Shown one piece after another: positions 6,634 to 31,105 of a DNA stretch of 33,569 nt. The notes under the pieces were generated by a model. The model saw nothing but the letters and a program-made list of their open reading frames with translations, did no database searches and had not been told where the DNA came from. Numbering within the stretch: the stretch's first letter is position 1; each line of letters begins with the position of its first letter. Where the stretch lies: positions 1-33,569 of the forward strand of contig JAVYMA010000021.1 of NCBI GenBank assembly GCA_038740345.1, read 5' to 3'. The stretch is from Methanomassiliicoccales archaeon. Lineage in GTDB: Archaea; Thermoplasmatota; Thermoplasmata; Methanomassiliicoccales; UBA472. A program made the translations under genes and the position numbers.

Positions 6634-6909
6634 TTGTCGGGCAGAACGGTGGTGCGAAAAATCGATGGAGGTAAGCTGTTCCGCCTAACTTTATTGCCCA
6701 CTGGTAAAGTTCGGTTACATGGAGATTTCTTCCTTTATCCTGAAGAACGCATAGAAGCAATTGAGGAATGGCTAGAGTGTTGTTTGACTATGCCTGATAA
6801 GACAAGTGCGAAAAGGTACTTAGAAAAGGAGATTGATGAAGAAAAAATAACCATTCTCGGTGTTGATGTTCAACACTTGATAGATGCTCTCTGGAGGGCC
6901 AAGGAATGA
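6634..6909 (+). CDS. lplB: Lipoate-protein ligase accessory subunit, LplB-like
   Basis: A 91-residue protein corresponding to the detached C-terminal accessory domain of lipoate-protein ligase. In Thermoplasma acidophilum this domain is a separate subunit that the catalytic subunit needs to form lipoyl-AMP. The sequence starts with a GGKLFRLTL...GKVRLHGDFFLYPEE pattern, typical of this domain, and then becomes helical. Its stop overlaps the lplA start by four bases (ATGA), so translation is probably coupled. The start is TTG at 6634; a weak GGTTGAT lies upstream and overlaps the thioredoxin stop. The order lplB-lplA places the accessory subunit first. Confidence 0.85.
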   Translation: MSGRTVVRKIDGGKLFRLTLLPTGKVRLHGDFFLYPEERIEAIEEWLECCLTMPDKTSAKRYLEKEIDEEKITILGVDVQHLIDALWRAKE

Positions 6910-7652
6910 GGTGGAGGTTCGTGGACTTCGAGTATTGGAGTGCAGCCATGAATATGGGCATAGATGAGGCGGTATGCGAGGGAGTCATGAAAGGTACTAG
7001 CCCCCCCACCATCAGACTATATGGCTGGAAGCCTAGCGCCGTGAGCATCGGAGCTTTTCAAAGCATGAATCAAGAAGTCGATTATCGCACATGCGTCCTT
7101 TTGGGTATTGATGTGGTTCGTAGGCGAACTGGCGGGGGAGCGGTTTACCATGATCAGCATGGAGAGATAACCTATAGTGTGATATGTCCTGAGGAGCTTA
7201 TGCCTCTAGACATAAATGCCGCCTATCGCGAAGTATGTGGGCGTATTGTGGATGCCTTAGCGATTTTAGGAGTTAAAGGTGTTTTTGCTCCAGTAAATGA
7301 TGTTCTAGTCGACGGGAGAAAAATCTCTGGAAGCGCTCAAACCCGCAGGAATGGCGTATTCCTTCAACATGGAACCATACTTCTTAGCGTGGATAGGAAA
7401 ACTATGTTTCGGGTGCTTAAAGTGCCCTCGCAGAAACTGGAAGGAAGAAAACTAGCTTCGCCAGAAGATAGAATAATATCTCTTAAGGAGGTCTGTCACG
7501 CAAGCAAAGAAGAGGTCCTTAATGCTATGAAGACATCTTTTTTAAAAGGCCGTACGTGGGATGAAGGGACTTGGCGCGATGATGAACTGGTTAGGGCGAA
7601 AGTGTTGGCCGAGCAGAGATACGCCTCAAGAGATTGGAACTTTTCGCGTTAG
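6906..7652 (+). CDS. lplA: Lipoate-protein ligase catalytic subunit
   Basis: The 248-residue catalytic domain of the biotin/lipoate ligase (BPL_LplA_LipB) fold. It carries the ligand-binding motif RRTGGGAVYHD near 73-83 and the conserved lysine K139 in GRKISGSAQ. It lacks the C-terminal accessory domain, which is supplied by the preceding gene. It activates lipoate with ATP and transfers it to the E2 lipoyl lysine. Because a lipoyl synthase gene is also nearby, octanoate attachment or octanoyl transfer is an alternative substrate. Start ATG 6906, coupled to lplB. It converges on the E2 gene: the two stop codons share two base pairs (TTAG at 7649-7652). Confidence 0.92.
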   Translation: MRWRFVDFEYWSAAMNMGIDEAVCEGVMKGTSPPTIRLYGWKPSAVSIGAFQSMNQEVDYRTCVLLGIDVVRRRTGGGAVYHDQHGEITYSVICPEELMPLDINAAYREVCGRIVDALAILGVKGVFAPVNDVLVDGRKISGSAQTRRNGVFLQHGTILLSVDRKTMFRVLKVPSQKLEGRKLASPEDRIISLKEVCHASKEEVLNAMKTSFLKGRTWDEGTWRDDELVRAKVLAEQRYASRDWNFSR

Positions 7653-8902
7653 TGCATGGCCAATATCAATTCAGGATTCTCTAAATAGCGCCGGAATTCC
7701 CCCATGAACTTCGCTGCATGCGCACCATCCATAATTCGATGATCCCAAGTCAAGGAAAGGGGCATTATTTTCCTAAGTTTAATCTCGCCATCATGTGCCC
7801 AGGGCATCTCTCTTATCCTTCCTATACCTAGAATTGCGGCTTCTGGATAATTGATTATGGGATTGCCGTAAGTTCCTCCCAGGGTCCCATAGTTCGTTAT
7901 TGTGAAAGTCCCTCCCTTTAAATCTCCTAGATCTATCTTCCGTTCCATTGCCTTCTTAGCTAAGTCCTCAATCTCTGCAGCGATTTCCATAATCTCCTTT
8001 TGATCCGCCGCCTTTATCACTGGTACCATCAAACCCTCATCTGTGGCCACTGCCACACCTATATTGTAATATTTCTTCAGGATTATCTCACCTGAATCTT
8101 CGTCTAGACTGGAATTAAGGTACGGATTGTTCTTTAAAGCCATCACTGTAGCCTTGACGATGAAAGGCATATAGGTTAATTTCACCTTCTTCTGCTCTAA
8201 GGCAATAGACTTCAAACGCTCTCTCATGGCGACAAGGTCTGTAACGTCAGCATCGTCCATCATGGTCACCATGGCAGTTTTCAAAGTGGATTCCATCATC
8301 TTCTTGGCTGTGGTTTTGCGAATGCCTTTAACTGTTTCGCGGTCGATATAACCATAAAGATCAAATTTCGCGATTTTGCGAGGGCGAGCAGTAATAGTAG
8401 TCTGTGAAGCTTGACGCACATCCTCTTCGGTGATCCGACCGGAGGGGCCTGTGCCTTTAATTTTACTTATCTCCACCCCCAAATCCTTTGCTAACTTTCG
8501 CACCGCCGGCGTGGCAAGAATGTTTGAAGGGGTGACCTCCCCAAGCGACTTGGAGCTCACTATAATCTCTTCTTCAGGTAATTCGCCAACTACGGAAACT
8601 GATGGTTTTCTATCCGCTTCGTTGGAGGGAGCTGTGATAGGGGAAGATATAGCCATTTCTTCCCCTGGTGTTGCGATTGTGGCCAAGATTTCGCCTACTT
8701 TCACCGTCTCCCCTTCCTTATGATAAAGACGTAAGACCTTTCCAGTGACTGGTGATGGCATTTCCACCACTGCTTTGTCCGTCTCAACCTCAGCTATTGA
8801 TTGGTCTTGCTTTACCTCATCCCCTTCTTTGATAAGCCACCTTTTAATCTCTCCCTCGGTTACACCCTCCCCCAGATCTGGAAATTTAAAATCCGTCGGC
8901 AT
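7649..8902 (-). CDS. pdhC: 2-Oxoacid dehydrogenase E2 (dihydrolipoyl acyltransferase)
   Basis: The core acyltransferase of a pyruvate/branched-chain 2-oxoacid dehydrogenase complex. Domains in order: one lipoyl domain (1-78) with the lipoylated lysine K43 in ETDKAVVEMP; an acidic, Ser-rich linker; a peripheral subunit-binding domain (about 129-163, ATPAVRKLAKDLGV); a second linker; and the catalytic domain (about 190-417) with H388 and D392 in the DHRIMDG motif. At 417 residues it has the normal one-lipoyl-domain length. GAGGTG lies five bases before the ATG and the E1beta stop is 9 bp upstream, so it is the last gene of the lipA-E1-E2 operon. Substrate specificity cannot be read from the sequence. 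Confidence 0.95.
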   Translation of the reverse strand: MPTDFKFPDLGEGVTEGEIKRWLIKEGDEVKQDQSIAEVETDKAVVEMPSPVTGKVLRLYHKEGETVKVGEILATIATPGEEMAISSPITAPSNEADRKPSVSVVGELPEEEIIVSSKSLGEVTPSNILATPAVRKLAKDLGVEISKIKGTGPSGRITEEDVRQASQTTITARPRKIAKFDLYGYIDRETVKGIRKTTAKKMMESTLKTAMVTMMDDADVTDLVAMRERLKSIALEQKKVKLTYMPFIVKATVMALKNNPYLNSSLDEDSGEIILKKYYNIGVAVATDEGLMVPVIKAADQKEIMEIAAEIEDLAKKAMERKIDLGDLKGGTFTITNYGTLGGTYGNPIINYPEAAILGIGRIREMPWAHDGEIKLRKIMPLSLTWDHRIMDGAHAAKFMGEFRRYLENPELILAMH

Positions 8903-8911
8903 GCCAACACC

Positions 8912-9889
8912 TCAGAAGCTCATAACTCGTTTAACTGCTTTCACTACTCTATCAGGTTCGATGTAATAATAATTCTCCCCTTTAGGAAGAGGAACAGTTA
9001 TGTCAGGAGCAGTTACCCTCTCAACTGGAGCTTGTAAAGAAAGTAAAGCGCCTTCCATTATTCTGGCTGAAATCTCCGCCCCTAAACCGCAGTTCTTTGG
9101 AGCCTCATGAACAACCACGCATCTACCCGTTCGTTTTACTGAGTTCAAAATGGAGGAATAATCCATAGGGGACAAAGTCCTCATATCTAGGATATCAGCG
9201 CTTATGCCTTGATTATCCAGTTGCACCGCTGCTTTCTCTATTACAGCCATCATGGCTCCCCAGCCAACGATTGTCACATCCTTTCCTTGACGGACCTTTC
9301 TAGCTTGCCCCAAGGGAATGGTGTATTCACCATCTGGAACTTCCTCTTTTATCATTCGATAAAGGCGTGTAGGTTCAAGGAAAATAACTGGATCGGGGTC
9401 CCTTATGCTAGAAGTGAGCAATCCTTTAGCCTCAAGAGGGGTTGAAGGCACAACGACTTTTAAACCAGGAATATGACAGAATACTGCTTCGGTGCTCTCC
9501 GAATGGTGCTCCAAAGCTTTCACGCCAGCTCCATAAGGTGTGCGGACCACGAGTGGTAGGCCAATTCGACCCCGTGTCCTATTGCGCATCCTTGCCGCAT
9601 GAGATACTAATTGTTGGTACGCTGGATATATAAATCCCATGAATTGAATCTCCGCTACTGGTCGTAGGCCATTCATAGCCATACCTATGACCGTGCCAAC
9701 AATACTGGATTCAGCCAGCGGCGTGTCTATGACTCTATCTCCACCGAATAGATTATACAATCCTTCGGTGACGCGGAAAACTCCCCCATTGACGCCTACA
9801 TCCTCTCCCAGGCAAACCACCGATGGATCACGGTCCATTTCTTCACGAAGGGCTGAATTTATAGCGCCAACCATGTTCATCAATGCCAT
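8912..9889 (-). CDS. pdhB: 2-Oxoacid dehydrogenase E1 beta subunit
   Basis: The beta chain of the heterotetrameric, thiamine-diphosphate-dependent E1 component, which decarboxylates the 2-oxoacid and reductively acylates the lipoyl group of E2. It is 325 residues, the family norm. It shows the GED motif at 28-30, DTPLAE at 55-60 with the glutamate that activates the cofactor, an RTPYGAGVKALEHHS active-site segment (about 116-130), and the C-terminal transketolase domain. A GGGAGGG ribosome binding site precedes the ATG. It begins 3 bp after the E1alpha stop. Pyruvate and branched-chain oxoacids are both possible substrates, as reported for the Thermoplasma complex. Confidence 0.95.
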   Translation of the reverse strand: MALMNMVGAINSALREEMDRDPSVVCLGEDVGVNGGVFRVTEGLYNLFGGDRVIDTPLAESSIVGTVIGMAMNGLRPVAEIQFMGFIYPAYQQLVSHAARMRNRTRGRIGLPLVVRTPYGAGVKALEHHSESTEAVFCHIPGLKVVVPSTPLEAKGLLTSSIRDPDPVIFLEPTRLYRMIKEEVPDGEYTIPLGQARKVRQGKDVTIVGWGAMMAVIEKAAVQLDNQGISADILDMRTLSPMDYSSILNSVKRTGRCVVVHEAPKNCGLGAEISARIMEGALLSLQAPVERVTAPDITVPLPKGENYYYIEPDRVVKAVKRVMSF

Positions 9890-9892
9890 CTA

Positions 9893-10978
9893 TCAGCCCT
9901 CCCGTGAAGGCATAAGCTCTGAGCGAAGGAAGCTGAGTTGGGCTTTTAGATCCTCGCTCATGTTTGCATAGGTATGAATGAATACTTCATCTAAAGATGG
10001 TGGAGGAAATGATTCTGCCCTCTTAACCTCCTCCTCTACTATCCTCGTAGCCTCTTCAGTCCACGCACTTTCCTTCTTCTCATTCCATAAAGATTTGGAA
10101 ATAAGATATGTTCTGAATCTTGAGATGGGATCTCTAGCAGTCCAATAGGCTATTTCCTCCTCGCTTCGATAACGGGACGCATCGTCAGAAGTTGTATGAT
10201 CGCCCATGCGATATGTGAATGACTCAATGAGGGTGGGCCCTTCACCTCTTTTGGCCTTCTCTAAGGCTTCCTTGGCAGCGGCATATAGGGCCAGGATATC
10301 ATTTCCATCCACCAGAATCCCTTTGAAACCATAAGCATTTGCCTTTTGTGCCAGAGTTAGCGAAGCGGTTTGTCTTTTTCTCGGAACAGAGATGGCCCAT
10401 TGATTGTTTTGACAAACGAACACTACTGGCAACCGCATAAGTCCAGCAAAATTCAATCCTTCATGGAAATCGCCTTCTGACGTGGCGCCATCTCCGAAGT
10501 AGCAAAGCACCGCTTTTGGTTCTTTGCGATACTTGATAGCATATGCGATGCCTGCAGCATGAGGGATCTGACTACCAACTGGAACAGCAGAGGGAGTGAC
10601 GTTCACGTCCCCCTCTAAAATCGAACCTTCCTCATTACCCATCCAATAGAGATAGAGTCGCCAAAGTGGAATACCCCTCAACAGGAGAGCTCCCAATTCC
10701 CTAAATGCCCATACAATCCAATCTCCTTTTTCTAAAGCGAGGGCGGGCCCTATTTGACTGGCTTCCTGACCTCGAGAAGGAGGATAAGCTCCCAAACGTC
10801 CTTGTCTCTGAAGCTTTACTGCTTTTTCATCCGCTATTCGCGATAATACCATAGTCTTATAGGCATGTATCAGCTTGCTTTCCTCTATTAAAGGTTCAAG
10901 TGACTTGTTCACTACTCCATCCTTGTCCAATATGCTCAGCATTTCCCCTTTTTCTGGATCAAATTCATCTATTAACAC
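9893..10978 (-). CDS. pdhA: 2-Oxoacid dehydrogenase E1 alpha subunit
   Basis: The alpha chain of E1, 361 residues. The thiamine diphosphate/Mg motif is clear: GDG at 162-164 followed by NN at 191-192 (GDGATSEGDFHEG...QNNQWAIS). The conserved MGDHTTSDDASRYR loop lies near 258-271. The start codon is GTG at 10978, immediately after the lipA TGA (TGAGTG), with AGGAGGGG five bases upstream, inside lipA. Together with E1beta and E2 it forms the dehydrogenase complex. No E3 (dihydrolipoamide dehydrogenase) gene lies anywhere in this window. Confidence 0.95.
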   Translation of the reverse strand: MLIDEFDPEKGEMLSILDKDGVVNKSLEPLIEESKLIHAYKTMVLSRIADEKAVKLQRQGRLGAYPPSRGQEASQIGPALALEKGDWIVWAFRELGALLLRGIPLWRLYLYWMGNEEGSILEGDVNVTPSAVPVGSQIPHAAGIAYAIKYRKEPKAVLCYFGDGATSEGDFHEGLNFAGLMRLPVVFVCQNNQWAISVPRKRQTASLTLAQKANAYGFKGILVDGNDILALYAAAKEALEKAKRGEGPTLIESFTYRMGDHTTSDDASRYRSEEEIAYWTARDPISRFRTYLISKSLWNEKKESAWTEEATRIVEEEVKRAESFPPPSLDEVFIHTYANMSEDLKAQLSFLRSELMPSREG

Positions 10979-11854
10979 TCATTCCCCTCCTAAAAGCATG
11001 TCACGAGCTCGATATGAACTCCTCACTAATGGCCCTGCCATAACCTCTTTGAATCCCATTGAGAGCCCCCACTCCCTAAAACGTATGAACTCTTCTGGCT
11101 TAATGTATCGCTGCACTCTCAATTCTACACCCTTAGGCTGTAAATATTGTCCTAAATTAATGAAATCAACTCCAGCTTTTCGTGCATCCATCATAGTTTC
11201 AAATATCTCTTCCTCCGTTTCTCCTAAACCTAGCATTATAGATGTCTTGACTGGGGTTTGTGGCGCATTACTTTTGAGTTCTTTCAAAACAAATAGAGAA
11301 CTTTCATAGCCTGCTTTAGCATCCCTCACCGACTCTTGCAAGCGGCGAACCACCTCTAAATTATGAGCTAATACATCCGCACCGGCCCTGGACACTATTC
11401 TCAAAGCATCCTCATGGCATTGAAAATCAGGCAACAACAACTCAACCTTTACATCTCGATTCATAGACTTTATGGCTTTAACTGTGTTTGCAAAGGCCTT
11501 GGCTCCTCCGTCCTGCAGGTCGTCGCGTGTAACAGAAGTTACCACCACATAATTCAAACCCATTTTTTCCACCGCTTGTGCTACCCTTTCCGGCTCTTCT
11601 TCGTCCAAAACTCCATTAGGGTTTCCTGTAGAAACGGCACAGAATCTACAGTAACGTGTGCATATCTGACCGAGAATAAGAAAAGTCACCGCACCCCTTT
11701 CCCAGCATTGTCCCAGGTTCGGGCATTGAGAAGAGTCGCAAACAGTTCTAACTGAGCATTGGTTTAAAATCTCACGGACACTTCTTACCTTCTGAACATC
11801 ACCAAGCTTGATTTTTATCCATTCTGGTTTGCTTGATTTTGACTGAGTTATCAT
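10979..11854 (-). CDS. lipA: Lipoyl synthase
   Basis: A radical-SAM enzyme that inserts two sulfurs into an octanoyl group already attached to E2. Both cluster motifs are intact: the auxiliary cluster ligands C39, C44 and C50 (CDSSQCPNLGQC), and the radical-SAM CxxxCxxC at C65, C69 and C72 (CTRYCRFC). The C-terminal RSSY segment (about 278-281) that supplies the serine ligand is also present. At 291 residues it is near the family length. It is the first gene of the operon lipA-E1alpha-E1beta-E2 with no gap to the next gene. No ribosome binding site is evident before the ATG at 11854. Confidence 0.95.
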   Translation of the reverse strand: MITQSKSSKPEWIKIKLGDVQKVRSVREILNQCSVRTVCDSSQCPNLGQCWERGAVTFLILGQICTRYCRFCAVSTGNPNGVLDEEEPERVAQAVEKMGLNYVVVTSVTRDDLQDGGAKAFANTVKAIKSMNRDVKVELLLPDFQCHEDALRIVSRAGADVLAHNLEVVRRLQESVRDAKAGYESSLFVLKELKSNAPQTPVKTSIMLGLGETEEEIFETMMDARKAGVDFINLGQYLQPKGVELRVQRYIKPEEFIRFREWGLSMGFKEVMAGPLVRSSYRARDMLLGGE

Positions 11855-11909: not shown

Positions 11910-12908
11910 TCAAAAATATTTACCATATGATCTACAACAACGAATCATGGCCTCCACATGGTGCATTGGCATGCCACGGTGAAGAGAGCATGAGCACATT
12001 AATATATAGCCTCCTTCAGCAGCGCATTTATCTATATATTCTCTAGTCTCTCGCTCTATCCTTTCCTCCGGTCCGAACAGCAGCGTGGTGAAGACGTTCG
12101 GTCCTCCTAACACGCACACCTTTCCACGGCATATTTCTTTTAAAAATCTGAGGTCGTTCTCCTCTGCAAATTGGATTCCAACCACTCCTGTAGATATAAT
12201 ATCTTCTACAAGTGAAATATTCTCCGGTGATTGAAAGATGCCATGGGGATGAAAAATGGTCTGCATTCCGAGATTTTTAGCTTTCTTTGTTATCTCACGC
12301 ACCCCTGGTAATGAGAAATGGCGAAAGACCTCGCTGCCGAAAATCGAAGGATTATCCGTGGAAGATGCTAAAAAGCACGTTCCAGCTCCTTTCCTCGCGG
12401 CCTCCTCCAAAAAGGCGATGGATAGTTGAGTGGACAGATAGGTCACATCCTTTGCTGATGACCTGTCTAGCTCGATATCCATGGCAAAACGCTCCAATCC
12501 GCGTAACAGCGCAGCTTTTGTCATCGGCCCCTCCAGATTGCAAACCACCTCAGCTTCTTCTCTTAATGATTTAGAGACTAGCTCATAAGAACGAAGAGCC
12601 TCGCGATACGGGCTATCATTCATCGAAGGCATAACAATGCGTTCTCTCCAATCCCCTCCTTCCAAGGGATGCTTGATCACTGAAGGTATTCCTCGATCAG
12701 GAAATTTCAGCTCCCCACCCAGTGACTGAGCATCAAACCCAACATAATGAATACAGCCAACCACCGCATCTTGGCCCAGACGTTTTTGCAATGATATTAC
12801 CGAGCGAGCAGACTTCTCTGCATCATAAGGCGGAGCGCATACTTCAGGAGTAGAATAATTACACTCATCTAAGCCCAAGGTCAAATCCCGAAGGAATATG
12901 GGAACCAT
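11910..12908 (-). CDS. UroD/MtaA-family protein (methyltransferase-like)
   Basis: Related to uroporphyrinogen decarboxylase and the methylcobalamin:coenzyme M methyltransferases (MtaA/MtbA). Numbering is from the ATG at 12908. The barrel strands LGGPNVFTTLLFG (267-279) and the C-terminal CSLHRGMP loop (307-314) fit the MtaA pattern, with C307 at the zinc-cysteine position. The upstream HxC zinc motif is H220-P-H222-G instead. The substrate is therefore unknown, and heme synthesis is unlikely. The given start is the first conventional codon, but family-like sequence continues upstream (KGRERFLTALNLEIPD) to an ATC at 12959 that sits 7 nt after GGAAGGAG. The real protein probably begins there, overlapping the binding-protein gene by 25 bp. 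It is the last gene of the ABC importer operon. Confidence 0.85.
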   Translation of the reverse strand: MVPIFLRDLTLGLDECNYSTPEVCAPPYDAEKSARSVISLQKRLGQDAVVGCIHYVGFDAQSLGGELKFPDRGIPSVIKHPLEGGDWRERIVMPSMNDSPYREALRSYELVSKSLREEAEVVCNLEGPMTKAALLRGLERFAMDIELDRSSAKDVTYLSTQLSIAFLEEAARKGAGTCFLASSTDNPSIFGSEVFRHFSLPGVREITKKAKNLGMQTIFHPHGIFQSPENISLVEDIISTGVVGIQFAEENDLRFLKEICRGKVCVLGGPNVFTTLLFGPEERIERETREYIDKCAAEGGYILMCSCSLHRGMPMHHVEAMIRCCRSYGKYF

Positions 12909-12934
12909 ATCAGGGATTTCAAGATTAAGGGCTG

Positions 12935-13963
12935 TTAAGAATCTCTCTCGTCCTTTGATAAGATCACTCCTTCCATAATAATAGAATTTCTTGGCTTATC
13001 ATTAAGACAAATATTTGGCGACAATCTTGACGTGAATTCAGGAATTGCAGATATCCTTCCATTTTCAAGTAGGAATTCGGCGGTCTGCTCTAAGCTTTGT
13101 AAATCTGTGTCATCGAAGCCTATGGCAAAAAATTGCTTTTGCATACTTCTCCGGGTATCTTCAATACTTAATCCAATTTTTCTTGAGCAAATATCAACGC
13201 TCTCGTTATAATTTTGATTGATGAAATCAATCGCTCGTTGCAAAGCTCTCATGGCAGCTTTGATTGCCTCAGGCTTCTCTTCCAAGGCTTTACCTGAAGC
13301 CATGAATAGAAGTGGAAAAGTATTGCCAAGACCGCTTGAATCTCCAATCTGATGCACGCTGCCTCCACACAGCCTCTCTACGTTAGTGGGCCATGGCTCA
13401 CTACCTGCCATCGCATCTATCTGCTTGGTATTCATGGCATTAGGCATATCGCTAGGGTTCATAGGTACTAAGGTAACTTTTGACATATTTACGTCGTTCT
13501 TTTTCATCCATTGAAGAAAAGAACCATGAGTGCTAGATCCCATTTGGATACCTACTTTTCGACCTTCCAAGTCCTTTGGTTGAGTGATATAATCTTGAGC
13601 TATGTATCGATGTAGCCCTTCACCTCCTGAGTAACGGCATAAAATTCTGGCACTTGGATTCCTATCTAAAAGGATAATTGCTGGTGCATCTCCCATAGCC
13701 CCCACATCAGCCGATCCAGTTATGATGGCTTCAGCAGACTGTATACCTCCACTGACCACCATGGTAGTAATATTCAGGTTTTCATCAATAAAATAACCCT
13801 TCTCAACGGCCACGATGAATGGCTCATAATTGAACTTGTTGGAATATGTGAGTACTAGGTCCATTTTTTCATCCAATTTATTTTTAAGCAGAAAGGTCGT
13901 TCCAAAGAAACCAATTAGCAACATTAAGACTAGAGCTAATACCACTATCGATGATTTTCTCAT
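12935..13963 (-). CDS. NitT/TauT-type ABC substrate-binding protein
   Basis: A 342-residue periplasmic-binding protein of the NMT1/SsuA family, membrane-tethered by an N-terminal helix (about residues 6-26) with no lipobox cysteine. Typical family elements are EPFIVAVEKGYFIDENLN near 47-64, the GSADVGAMGDAPAIILLD segment near 83-100, the GRKVGIQMGSSTHGS loop near 134-148, and AMAGSEPWP near 184-192. Relatives bind sulfonates, taurine, nitrate, bicarbonate or thiamine precursors, so the ligand cannot be fixed. GGAGGGT lies five bases before the ATG. It is encoded between the ATPase and the UroD-like gene; the last 25 bp probably overlap the latter's true start. Confidence 0.9.
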   Translation of the reverse strand: MRKSSIVVLALVLMLLIGFFGTTFLLKNKLDEKMDLVLTYSNKFNYEPFIVAVEKGYFIDENLNITTMVVSGGIQSAEAIITGSADVGAMGDAPAIILLDRNPSARILCRYSGGEGLHRYIAQDYITQPKDLEGRKVGIQMGSSTHGSFLQWMKKNDVNMSKVTLVPMNPSDMPNAMNTKQIDAMAGSEPWPTNVERLCGGSVHQIGDSSGLGNTFPLLFMASGKALEEKPEAIKAAMRALQRAIDFINQNYNESVDICSRKIGLSIEDTRRSMQKQFFAIGFDDTDLQSLEQTAEFLLENGRISAIPEFTSRLSPNICLNDKPRNSIIMEGVILSKDERDS

Positions 13964-13975
13964 TTTCTACCCTCC

Positions 13976-14797
13976 TCAACCGATTTTCTCATTTTCTTCT
14001 ATGACGACAGGAGTTAAAGTCTCAGGTGATGAAGCGGAAGTCTTAGCACAAGCGCAAATATGTAAATTAGACGAAATTTCCTTCTTCAGTGAGGCGAATT
14101 CCTGAGAGGCGGGATCCCTTGGCCATTCTAAATTTATCTTCCATTCTTTCATTATTCTACCTGGCGAGGGGGACATCAAAACTACTCTTGTCCCTAGAAA
14201 TATAGCTTCCTCAATATTATGGGTTACGAATATAACACCTTTCCTGCCGACTTTCCAGAGGCACAAAGTCTCACTATCTAAACGCCTTCGCGTCTGCTCA
14301 TCCAAACTACCAAAGGGCTCATCCATGAGTAGCACCTGAGGGTCCATAGCCAAGGCTCTGGCTATTGCCACACGCTGTTTCATCCCACCTGAGAGATCGC
14401 TGGGCCTTGCAGCTTGAAAATTTGACAGCCCTACTAAATTCAAATAGAATTTAGCCCTCTTTTCTCGTTGTCTTTTATCTGCTTCAACCGCCCTTAAAGC
14501 GAACTCTATATTTTCAAGGACACTCATCCAAGGAAATAGACTGAACTCTTGGAAAACAACAGCCCTATCCGGTCCTGGACCATCTAATCGACGGCCCTCG
14601 AATAAGACCTCTCCTTTTGTAGGCCTTTCAAACCCAGCAGCCACATTCAAGAGGGTGGTTTTCCCGCAACCACTGGGACCTATTAAGCATACGAACTCGC
14701 CCTTTTCTACCTTAAGATTGATGTGGCTTAGGGCGACAAGACCTTTGCCCCTTTCATAATCTAGGAAAACTTTACTTACATCTCTTAATTCCAGCAT
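13976..14797 (-). CDS. NitT/TauT-type ABC ATPase
   Basis: The nucleotide-binding subunit of the same importer (SsuB/TauB/NrtD type), 273 residues. It has Walker A at 40-47 (GPSGCGKT), the Q-loop at Q83, the signature LSGGM at 135-139, Walker B LLMDEP at 156-161 and the H-loop H193. The start is ATG 14797, one base after the permease stop and matching the usual MLELRDVSKVF beginning; a TTG six codons upstream is rejected. The C-terminus has an extra tail of about 30 residues with a CAC motif (HICACAKTSASS) that I do not recognise. Confidence 0.92.
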   Translation of the reverse strand: MLELRDVSKVFLDYERGKGLVALSHINLKVEKGEFVCLIGPSGCGKTTLLNVAAGFERPTKGEVLFEGRRLDGPGPDRAVVFQEFSLFPWMSVLENIEFALRAVEADKRQREKRAKFYLNLVGLSNFQAARPSDLSGGMKQRVAIARALAMDPQVLLMDEPFGSLDEQTRRRLDSETLCLWKVGRKGVIFVTHNIEEAIFLGTRVVLMSPSPGRIMKEWKINLEWPRDPASQEFASLKKEISSNLHICACAKTSASSPETLTPVVIEENEKIG

Positions 14798-14798
14798 A

Positions 14799-15692
14799 CT
14801 ATACTTCCCTTTCAAGACCCAAGCGGTCTCTTATTTTTTCTTCAATTACTGTGAACAACATCTTTTCCACTGTCAGCCCTATCAAACATATCATCATGAT
14901 GGATACGAATGCTGACACATAATCCAAGCTATATCTTGATTGGATGATGACATATCCTAGGCCAAGGGCTATTCCAACTACCATTTCAGCAGCGATCAGC
15001 ACCCTCCAACCATTAGCAAGTCCTATGCGCAAACCGTCAATTATGGACAGAGCAGAGGCAGGTAAAAAAACCAAACTGAAGGAAAGTAAACGCCCAGCTC
15101 CCGACATTTGAGATACTCTTTTATAAACACAGGATACAGAACGCAATCCCCCCGAAGTATTGATAACTATGGGGGGGAAAGCAGTCATGAAGATCATAAA
15201 AATTGTTGCCGTCTCCCCTAAACCAAATATTAGCATAGCAATTGGTATCCATGCTAGACCAGGTATCATTTGTAAAATGTAGATTGAAACCACTGAAAGC
15301 TGATGCGCCTTCTGGGAAATGCCTAAAAGGAATCCTATACCAATCCCCACGACCACTGCAAGGACGTATGCTACCCCCCATCGATATAGGCTAGCAAATG
15401 TATGGTCATAAATGCTCTTTCCCTGGATTGGGATGCCACTTAATGCATCGGCAAATGCTTGAAAGGTCTCTAAAGGTCTGGGAAAATACACTCCTTTCAT
15501 AGCGGAGACCATTTCCGCAACTACGTACCATAGACTTAATATAATGGCGATGCCAGAAAACATTCCCACCAAATTTCTTCTCAGGCTGGCATATCTATCT
15601 CTAGGAAATTCGAAAAGCGATTCTCCTTTCTCCAATGCCTGAGAGACTCTGAGCAAACCATACTTATGTGCTTTAAGACCCACCCGACTCAA
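14799..15692 (-). CDS. NitT/TauT-type ABC permease
   Basis: The membrane subunit of the importer, 297 residues, with about six helices and the BPD_transp_1 EAA loop visible as AAEMVVGIALGLGYVI (about 234-249). It is the first gene of the operon permease-ATPase-binding protein-UroD-like. The start is TTG at 15692, four bases after GGGAGGA. The N-terminal ~35 residues before the first helix are polar and longer than usual. Its promoter must lie in the 160 bp AT-rich gap shared with the divergent SRP RNA gene. Confidence 0.92.
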   Translation of the reverse strand: MSRVGLKAHKYGLLRVSQALEKGESLFEFPRDRYASLRRNLVGMFSGIAIILSLWYVVAEMVSAMKGVYFPRPLETFQAFADALSGIPIQGKSIYDHTFASLYRWGVAYVLAVVVGIGIGFLLGISQKAHQLSVVSIYILQMIPGLAWIPIAMLIFGLGETATIFMIFMTAFPPIVINTSGGLRSVSCVYKRVSQMSGAGRLLSFSLVFLPASALSIIDGLRIGLANGWRVLIAAEMVVGIALGLGYVIIQSRYSLDYVSAFVSIMMICLIGLTVEKMLFTVIEEKIRDRLGLEREV

Positions 15693-28693: not shown

Positions 28694-31105
28694 TTAAGCC
28701 TGCTTATTAAGCACGTAATAATACAGGCCGCTAAACATTGGGTTGAAATAGTAGCCTGTCACCCAAGCCCTCTCCACATGGAACTGCGTAGCTTGGGCAG
28801 TCCACATATAGTAGGTCTTGTTGTAGACATACCATTCCATTTCATTATACATCTGGGCTCTCTTAGTAACGTTTAGCTCAACCGCTGCAGCATCTACCAT
28901 CTGTGTGAGCACCGGATCCTTCAGGCTTATTCTCAATGCATATGTTCCGCTCTCGCGGTAGAATGGCTGAGTGTAGTCATCTGGATCGTTGTAGTCAGGA
29001 GCCCACCCCAGGAAGAATATAGGCAATGTTCTTCCACGGACTGCGGGTAGGTAAGCACCAGACCAATCAAGAGCTTGAACGCTTACAGTAATTGTTCCAT
29101 TAACATAGCCCAGTGTCTTTAAGCTCTCCAGACCGTTCTTTAAAAGCTGGCAAGCGGCTTCACGGACGGTATTCCCCGAGTTGTAGTAAAGGACTATTCT
29201 AAAGCCCTGTTCCGCGTAAGAAACACCTGTTCGATTATCTATAGCCAGCTTGAGATAGTTCGCTGCTTCTTGGAGGTTGAACTGATACTTTGGCGCGTTG
29301 CTGTGGCCGAACATACCTAATGGAATAACTCCATTCGGTTGTATCGCTGTGCCTAACAGAACATCATTTATGAACTTATCATAGTCGAAGCAACGCACGA
29401 AAGCATTCCTGACGTTCTGATCAGCGAAGAACCATGCAGGAACATCACCCTGGTCCAACGTAGTACTCTTCCTTATGTTCTGGTTAAATCCCACGAAATC
29501 TAAGTTGAATGTTGGATTTCCTTCCACGATCCTTAAGTCAGGTCTTCCTCTTACATCACCAGTCTGTTGCCGAGGCACATATATGCAGTCGGCATCACCA
29601 GAGAAGAGCATCATCTCCCGCGTGCCCACATCCTCAACCTTCTTATACAATACGTACTTCAGAGGAGCAGGTCCAAGATGATATTCTTCATGCCTCTCAA
29701 GTAGCCAATATTGACCAGTTACCCATTCTTTGAGCTTGTATGGTCCTGTTCCCATCGTGTGGGTGTTAGCATACTCGTTAAAGGCTTCGCCCCGGACAAC
29801 GCCTCCATGAGCATTGATCCAAGCTTCTGACATTACTGATGCTACTGTATATGCCATCACTTGGTTGAAGGCCGGATATGGAGTTACTAGATGGATTGTG
29901 ACCGCATTGCCGCTCACGGTGACCGATTGTTCAATAAGATCCTGAGGTGGAACATCATAGTCATAATAGTTCGGTATCATGACCTGTCCAAGCATCCAGG
30001 CAGGTGACCACGGATCGTTCATCATTAGGACTCGCTCTAAAGAGAATTCTACATCTCTTGGAGTCATGATGCTTCCATCGTGGAACTTCACGCCCTGCTT
30101 TATATAATATGTATAATTCTTTCCATCAGGAGAAACGCCACCATTAGCTATCGTCGGCACATTTGTGGCCAAGACAGGTTTTAGATCATTGGGGCTTGCT
30201 CCGTCGTACCAGACTAGCGTCTCATAAACATTCTGCAACACTTCTCCACCGGCACTCTCATAGTTATAAGCTGGATCCAAAGACTCCGGCTCTCCGATAG
30301 AAACCATGACGAATGTATCAGGATTCTTTACTCCAGTGGTAGTCGTCGGTGGGATGACTATCGTGTTATAATACCTCTGCTGGACGGCCCCCTCACCTTT
30401 CACAATGCAGTAGGTAGGGAACAACGACTTAGCTGCACCAGTGAAAGTGTGATTCACCTGTGCTTTCTCTTCGAAACTGCCCTCAATTGGTGAAGATCCA
30501 TCGTTGAAGTTCCAAATGAGACCAGAAATAAAATCAGATGATAATACTGGTCCCTCTTCGGTCTCTCCCCATGCCTTGGAGTCTCCTGCATTGAAATCGA
30601 CCTTCGTACCACTTGTTATGCTGTCAGCTGATGTAGCAACCATTGCAAAGGGTACTGATGTCGAGCTTGGCTCCTCTGGGGCTGGTGGATTTGTAACCTC
30701 TATCTTCACCAATCTGCTCCATGTATCAGCTCTTGCTCCTTTGTCATCCTCTACCTCGAGAATGGCAATATATTTACCGGGGAAGAGATAGGTATGAGAC
30801 ACAATTGCCGTGGTAGTTTCTTGCGGTGTCACACTATCTCCGAACCACCAAATATACTTCGCAATGCTTCCATCAGAGTCCGAGCTAGCTGAGCCATTGA
30901 ACACGACCGGTGTTCCCAATGAGACGAAATTCGAACTCACCGAAAAACTGGCCGTGGGGCCCTTATTTCCCCCTCCCATCAATAAGACAGCCGCCAGGAC
31001 CACCGCCAAAACCAGAATGACGGCGATGACAATGACCAAAGTCTTGTTCATCGCACCTTTAGGCTTATCTTCAGATGGAAGAGGCTTCGCGCCTTCACCT
31101 TCCAT
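28694..31105 (-). CDS. dppA: Membrane-anchored oligopeptide-binding protein with PKD domains
   Basis: The extracellular solute-binding protein (SBP_bac_5 family) of the peptide importer, 803 residues against the usual 500-600. It starts with a cytosolic tail (1-18) and one membrane helix (about 22-43), with no lipobox. A PKD domain follows (about 50-137), with WWFGDSV and HTYLFPGKY motifs. A second PKD-like domain (about 152-252) contains LIWNFNDGSSP and VNHTF. The binding domain runs from about 263 to the end, including the usual SLDPAYNYESAGG start and a GTGPYKLKEW segment. AAGGAGG lies seven bases before the ATG. It is the first gene of the operon with its own TATA box. The PKD domains probably act as spacers or surface adhesives. 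Confidence 0.94.
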   Translation of the reverse strand: MEGEGAKPLPSEDKPKGAMNKTLVIVIAVILVLAVVLAAVLLMGGGNKGPTASFSVSSNFVSLGTPVVFNGSASSDSDGSIAKYIWWFGDSVTPQETTTAIVSHTYLFPGKYIAILEVEDDKGARADTWSRLVKIEVTNPPAPEEPSSTSVPFAMVATSADSITSGTKVDFNAGDSKAWGETEEGPVLSSDFISGLIWNFNDGSSPIEGSFEEKAQVNHTFTGAAKSLFPTYCIVKGEGAVQQRYYNTIVIPPTTTTGVKNPDTFVMVSIGEPESLDPAYNYESAGGEVLQNVYETLVWYDGASPNDLKPVLATNVPTIANGGVSPDGKNYTYYIKQGVKFHDGSIMTPRDVEFSLERVLMMNDPWSPAWMLGQVMIPNYYDYDVPPQDLIEQSVTVSGNAVTIHLVTPYPAFNQVMAYTVASVMSEAWINAHGGVVRGEAFNEYANTHTMGTGPYKLKEWVTGQYWLLERHEEYHLGPAPLKYVLYKKVEDVGTREMMLFSGDADCIYVPRQQTGDVRGRPDLRIVEGNPTFNLDFVGFNQNIRKSTTLDQGDVPAWFFADQNVRNAFVRCFDYDKFINDVLLGTAIQPNGVIPLGMFGHSNAPKYQFNLQEAANYLKLAIDNRTGVSYAEQGFRIVLYYNSGNTVREAACQLLKNGLESLKTLGYVNGTITVSVQALDWSGAYLPAVRGRTLPIFFLGWAPDYNDPDDYTQPFYRESGTYALRISLKDPVLTQMVDAAAVELNVTKRAQMYNEMEWYVYNKTYYMWTAQATQFHVERAWVTGYYFNPMFSGLYYYVLNKQA

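Follow-up and report, generated by a model that had tools for sequence, protein, structure and literature searches.

The window analysed here, i.e. the whole 33,569-nucleotide stretch of contig 21 (JAVYMA010000021.1) of a Methanomassiliicoccales genome (GCA_038740345.1; 1.79 Mb, 99% complete), carries on its minus strand, at 15692-11910, a block of four genes. They encode, in this order, the permease, the ATPase and the substrate-binding protein (SBP) of an ATP-binding cassette (ABC) importer and a protein with the UroD fold (Table 1). Neighbouring genes of the block overlap or almost touch, and all four products match Pfam families above cut-off (BPD_transp_1, ABC_tran, NMT1/NMT1_2 and URO-D, respectively). 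An earlier note, written from the letters of this DNA, had described a permease/ATPase/SBP/UroD operon, and the genes indeed lie at the places and in the order it gave, on the minus strand. The genome also encodes McrA, and the host is therefore very probably a methanogen. Methanomassiliicoccales, which have received little study so far, gain their energy by methyl-group transfer to coenzyme M (CoM).

Table 1. Features of the four-gene block and the gene downstream of it, in coordinates of the window
Feature	Position	Strand	Remarks
ABC importer permease, NitT/TauT type	14799..15692	-	PF00528, 57.4 bits
ABC importer ATPase	13976..14815	-	PF00005, 120.7 bits
SBP	12935..13963	-	NMT1, 78.6 bits; N-terminal hydrophobic helix at residues 3-30 of the model
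UroD/MtaA-fold protein	11910..12959	-	349 residues from the probable ATC; URO-D, 115.4 bits
His-Pro-His (H220-P221-H222), replacing HxC of MtaA	12243..12251	-	H220 at 12251-12249, H222 at 12245-12243
Distal Cys C307, in the distal-Cys column of MtaA	11988..11990	-	alignment to 4ay7
GGAAGGAGTG, candidate ribosome-binding site for the UroD-like gene, within the SBP gene	12964..12973	-	putative role, proposed from the sequence
Lipoyl synthase gene lipA	10979..11854	-	TIGR00510, 334.8 bits, above cut-off; next downstream, judged outside the functional unit

The four-gene order is beyond chance, as it recurs across families of the order. Among 61 genomes sampled around the window, its own included, 24 (again with its own) hold a relative of the UroD-like protein at E 1e-40 or better, one of them, G051, as a copy interrupted by a frame break. 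In the 34 loci of the clade, which include further genomes from a wider search of the phylum, the whole importer is found within 6 kb of the UroD gene and on its strand in 22 and any part of the importer in 25, i.e. the link between importer and UroD gene is conserved, though patchily distributed. A branch with a support of 100/99 separates the 38 clade members from the remaining rows of a 51-row tree, and the group closest to them (97/94) consists of three loci, L067-L069. The deeper order of the tree is unsure, because it holds a single HemE, a single CmuA and several rows on long branches. The UroD protein is 74% identical in a metagenome-assembled genome of the same genus. Beyond the order no relative was found at E 1e-40 in 389 sampled genomes of the phylum, where all 19 matches fell within the order. 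Viral contigs yielded none, and plasmid matches were only 21-22% identical (CmuA and an unannotated Acetoanaerobium gene). A scan of genome contigs, which hardly covers bacteria, returned only the Methanomassiliicoccales record of the same genus. A literature search, which reached few subscription journals, found no paper on the cassette or on a UroD clade with His-x-His.

The predicted structure of the UroD-like protein (pLDDT 93.6) has its nearest fold in MtaA (4ay7; Z 38.8, 330 aligned residues, rmsd 2.3), and in a phmmer alignment to 4ay7 the residues H220, H222 and C307 occupy the columns of the HxC motif and the distal Cys of MtaA. The earlier note had named precisely these residues as the altered zinc site, and they are correct when numbered from the ATG at 12908. 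The candidate metal site looks complete, changed from His-Cys-Cys to His-His-Cys. As His-Pro-His is invariant in all 38 clade rows of the tree, the distal Cys is kept in 36 of them and the EGP and DNP motifs are mostly retained across the clade, the UroD gene is not decaying. Eight UroD paralogues were found in this genome; seven were extracted and aligned, five of which have His-x-Cys. The UroD-like protein scores below the cut-off of every MtaA-type model (TIGR01463 (mtaA_cmuA) 110.8 versus 235.4, MtaA 68.5 versus 400, MtbA 53.4 versus 600). Thus, it resembles MtaA and MtbA (TIGR01463, 4ay7) in its full-length UroD fold and in the aligned first metal His and distal Cys, but differs from them in having His instead of Cys as second ligand, in these scores, in the absence of a corrinoid gene and in the attached importer. 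According to PMC10418091, S-methyltransferases of the UroD type have His-Cys-Cys, whereas O-methyltransferases have carboxylates or non-ligands instead of the Cys residues, and His-His-Cys matches neither of these sets. The UroD proteins of genus g18 (L051, L053-L056) carry a Cys-rich C-terminal extension without a Pfam match; a similar-looking, free-standing Cys-rich protein adjoins a DUF169 gene in this genome (L126, 7307-7612).

The start of the UroD-like gene is unusual. The ATG at 12908 is an internal Met codon, from which the product would count 332 residues, and the UroD family alignment begins 17 codons 5' of it, at an in-frame ATC (12957-12959). No in-frame ATG, GTG or TTG lies between the preceding stops and 12908, most UroD relatives have a Met at the family start position or within about two residues of it, and a strong Shine-Dalgarno-like run, GGAAGGAGTG, precedes the ATC where the start is expected. 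The gene probably begins at ATC 12959, i.e. 17 codons earlier, and both an ATC start and an assembly error are possible. In L102 (G399) the search for relatives reported one in-frame TGA in the UroD copy (about 7915-8961).

The best NCBIfam models are SaoP (121.0, cut-off 295) and TauC (115.3, cut-off 342) for the permease and SaoA (257.4, cut-off 360) and the taurine ATPase (240.2, cut-off 357) for the ATPase, and the SBP reaches 40.3 of the required 300 with SaoX, so that the importers of Sao operons are similar in supplying the best curated models for ATPase and permease, but all three of their cut-offs are missed by far. With SsuA_fam the SBP scores 130.5 bits, under the cut-off of 163.5. 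The model of the SBP (pLDDT 89.0) is nearest in fold to SsuA (2x26, Z 32.2), followed by SsuA with MOPS or MES (29.8 and 29.5) and TauA (29.7), with a thiamin-precursor binder (24.4) and a thiamin binder (22.4) both below them. This modelled fold favours a sulfonate-type ligand. Thus, of the uptake idea in the earlier note, which had listed a small sulfonate, a methylated compound or a cofactor precursor, the small sulfonate gained ground, and no clade of binding proteins with a well-established ligand of another kind, which the note had named as speaking against its idea, turned up. The exact ligand is not settled, because the SBP is less than 20% identical to the solved SsuA and TauA sulfonate binders. 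The block shares with SsuABC and TauABC the three-gene importer and the SBP fold, but differs in this low identity, in the missed SsuA_fam cut-off and in its UroD-fold partner. The partners of SsuABC and TauABC are a monooxygenase or a dioxygenase.

Neither ComD (threshold E 1e-10) nor cysteate synthase (E 1e-30) is matched in this genome. Above their cut-offs, ComD occurs in nine of the 61 genomes and cysteate synthase in eight, all among these nine, leaving 52 genomes without the former and 53 without the latter, a pattern suggesting that CoM auxotrophy is widespread or that there is an unknown route. According to two papers, the comABC route is missing in three sequenced members of the order (PMC4153887), the CoM importers of methanogens are encoded by ssuABC, and some isolates of the order require CoM (PMC10658910).

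As the earlier note had observed, no corrinoid protein is encoded near the block, and its suggested comparison of neighbourhoods extends this to the clade. We searched the 35 clade loci (the window with its 33.6 kb, and L042-L066, L070 and L096-L103 with 6.5 to 20 kb each) by tblastn with five corrinoid proteins and found a corrinoid gene in none of them, a result that holds within the loci and does not exclude distant genes. Elsewhere, this genome has four matches to the corrinoid model TIGR02370, each near a UroD gene other than that of the cassette, three within 60 bases and one at about 1.4 kb (range about 40 to 1,400); corrinoid proteins too far from TIGR02370 would escape this search. 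The absence of a corrinoid gene also sets the cassette apart from type 1 mlp clusters. These resemble it in having UroD-family methyltransferase-like proteins beyond plain CoM methylation but, according to PMC10418091, combine a corrinoid protein with a reductive activase and with two or three Mlps that have His-Cys-Cys, whereas the window has His-His-Cys and an importer. CdmB and the O-demethylases of the UroD superfamily likewise share the UroD fold and show that its metal site can be altered or lost, and CdmB functions without zinc; unlike the window cassette, however, they have their own corrinoid protein, and CdmB has an aromatic cavity without metal (PMC13222342).

Based on these findings we tentatively favour, with somewhat less than even confidence, a take-up-and-process cassette in which a sulfonate importer is coupled to a His-His-Cys, MtaA-like enzyme acting on the import. 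The importer would carry a small anionic sulfonate inward, and the cytoplasmic UroD-fold enzyme would bind Zn2+ or a different divalent metal ion via H220, H222 and C307 and act on the imported compound or its product by transferring a methyl or alkyl group at a heteroatom. Methylation or demethylation is what fold and family suggest for this enzyme. It may use no corrinoid protein of its own, i.e. transfer directly or borrow a methyl-corrinoid protein from elsewhere. As substrate, CoM, an S-substituted CoM or another relative would be the best single guess, because MtaA-type enzymes use CoM as their sulfonate and the genome is without ComD and cysteate synthase. A narrower form, in which the enzyme belongs to a corrinoid-independent MtaA/UroD branch and moves a methyl or alkyl group directly from or onto the imported sulfonate, seems rather unlikely to us; if true, it would be a way of feeding or draining the CoM pool that bypasses vitamin-B12 proteins. 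An importer tied to an MtaA-like enzyme with an altered metal site is a concrete candidate for the supply of CoM or related sulfonates in the order, and it would show how the UroD fold shifts between B12-linked thiol chemistry and other chemistry.

Several observations weigh against this interpretation. Ligand and activity are both putative, the identity of the SBP to solved binders is low, and His-His-Cys differs from the His-Cys-Cys of thiol methyltransferases described in PMC10418091. The distal Cys is missing in two clade members, L050 and L063 (they have CSGS, with the earlier Cys only). Importer and enzyme also occur apart: in nine of the 34 clade loci the UroD gene is without any nearby part of the importer (L053-L056 and L064, all of genus g18, L066, L098, L099 and L101, with L099 and L101 near contig starts), and at L130 (G054) the importer stands without an adjoining UroD gene. 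In this genome a second SsuA-family importer (C2:103622-104581), again without adjoining UroD, could be the CoM importer. Finally, the UroD gene is present in four of the nine ComD-positive and 20 of the 52 ComD-negative genomes. The cassette thus shows no inverse relation to CoM synthesis; it occurs beyond CoM auxotrophs, and not every auxotroph carries it.

A first alternative is CoM salvage, in which the importer would bring in HS-CoM or methyl-CoM and the enzyme would load or unload the methyl group for methyl-CoM reductase. McrA, the missing ComD and cysteate synthase, the MtaA-like fold of the enzyme and the naming of ssuABC as CoM importer would all suit such a role, which we nevertheless regard as unlikely, although it is the best of the alternatives: besides the lack of anti-correlation, this genome already has two His-x-Cys MtaA-type proteins above the PRK06252 and mtaA_cmuA cut-offs, and the metal site of the enzyme is unlike the thiol-methylating state.

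Ranked behind it, and doubtful, is a conventional corrinoid-dependent methyltransferase whose corrinoid protein would be a shared one, with its gene at another place in the genome. Four such proteins are available, and in the sister clade L067-L069, which also carries His-x-His (His-Thr-His), a corrinoid gene adjoins the enzyme in all three loci; yet none of the 35 clade loci has one, and each of the four genes lies near another UroD. The sister loci are another uncharacterised methyltransferase-like system, in which the next gene after UroD encodes a protein of 312-320 residues that looks membrane-like in L067.

A pathway for an unknown cofactor or an organometal or metalloid compound, of which a deeper subclade would have the fuller version and the window a trimmed one, is improbable and comes next. 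In nine of the 11 loci of this subclade at least one of three genes occurs (BioB-like radical SAM, CobW-related GTPase, C_GCAxxG_C_C), and in L062 (6923-9508) the CobW-type GTPase and the BioB-like radical SAM are fused in one frame directly before UroD. The nearest curated importer models, SaoA and SaoP, although far below cut-off, point in the same direction, Sao being the 'selenocysteine-assisted organometallic operon' in the legend of Fig. 5 of PMC10418091. However, none of the 23 loci of the main clade, to which the window belongs, has any of these genes, a radical SAM partner is unmatched elsewhere in this genome at E 1e-12, and the SBPs of the deeper subclade are only about 22-33% identical to that of the window. 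L096 has, between the importer and a second UroD gene, a short gene (12008-12412) with apparently both ends of a radical SAM protein but not its core.

The genes downstream raise the idea that the importer takes up lipoate or octanoate, which we consider very improbable. In the window the cassette is directly followed by lipA and the genes for E1 alpha, E1 beta and E2 of pyruvate dehydrogenase (PDH), with lplA nearby; lipA and PDH genes trail most cassette loci of the window's family and are also found behind the cassette in family f3, and L044 and L048 show stop/start overlaps. Against this, lipA was matched in 18 of the 24 carrier genomes but not in the other six, G016 retains lipA-PDH beside mere fragments of permease and UroD, and the SBP fold points to sulfonate binders. 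With six carriers lacking lipA and the fragments in G016, lipA-PDH is a co-location and not a general functional tie, and the lipoate link was rejected as a general explanation. Porphyrinogen decarboxylase activity, finally, is negligibly probable despite the shared fold (Z up to 37.0), as the hemE model TIGR01464 does not match the protein at E 0.001 whereas MtaA-type models do, the N-terminal motif of HemE is absent from the alignment and a metal-type HPH...C site is conserved. The placement among decarboxylases that the earlier note had listed as refuting its idea did not appear in the tree, where the protein is in its own clade (100/99) and HemE is represented by a single row on a long branch.

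Two further regions of the window are worth mentioning. The lipoate genes form a cluster at 6634-11854 of this methanogen, comprising lplA (6906-7652), probably lplB (6634-6909), lipA and the PDH genes. At 28694-31105 a protein of 803 residues, in which PKD-type repeats and an OppA-like part can be discerned by eye, is encoded before an oligopeptide-type ABC transporter.

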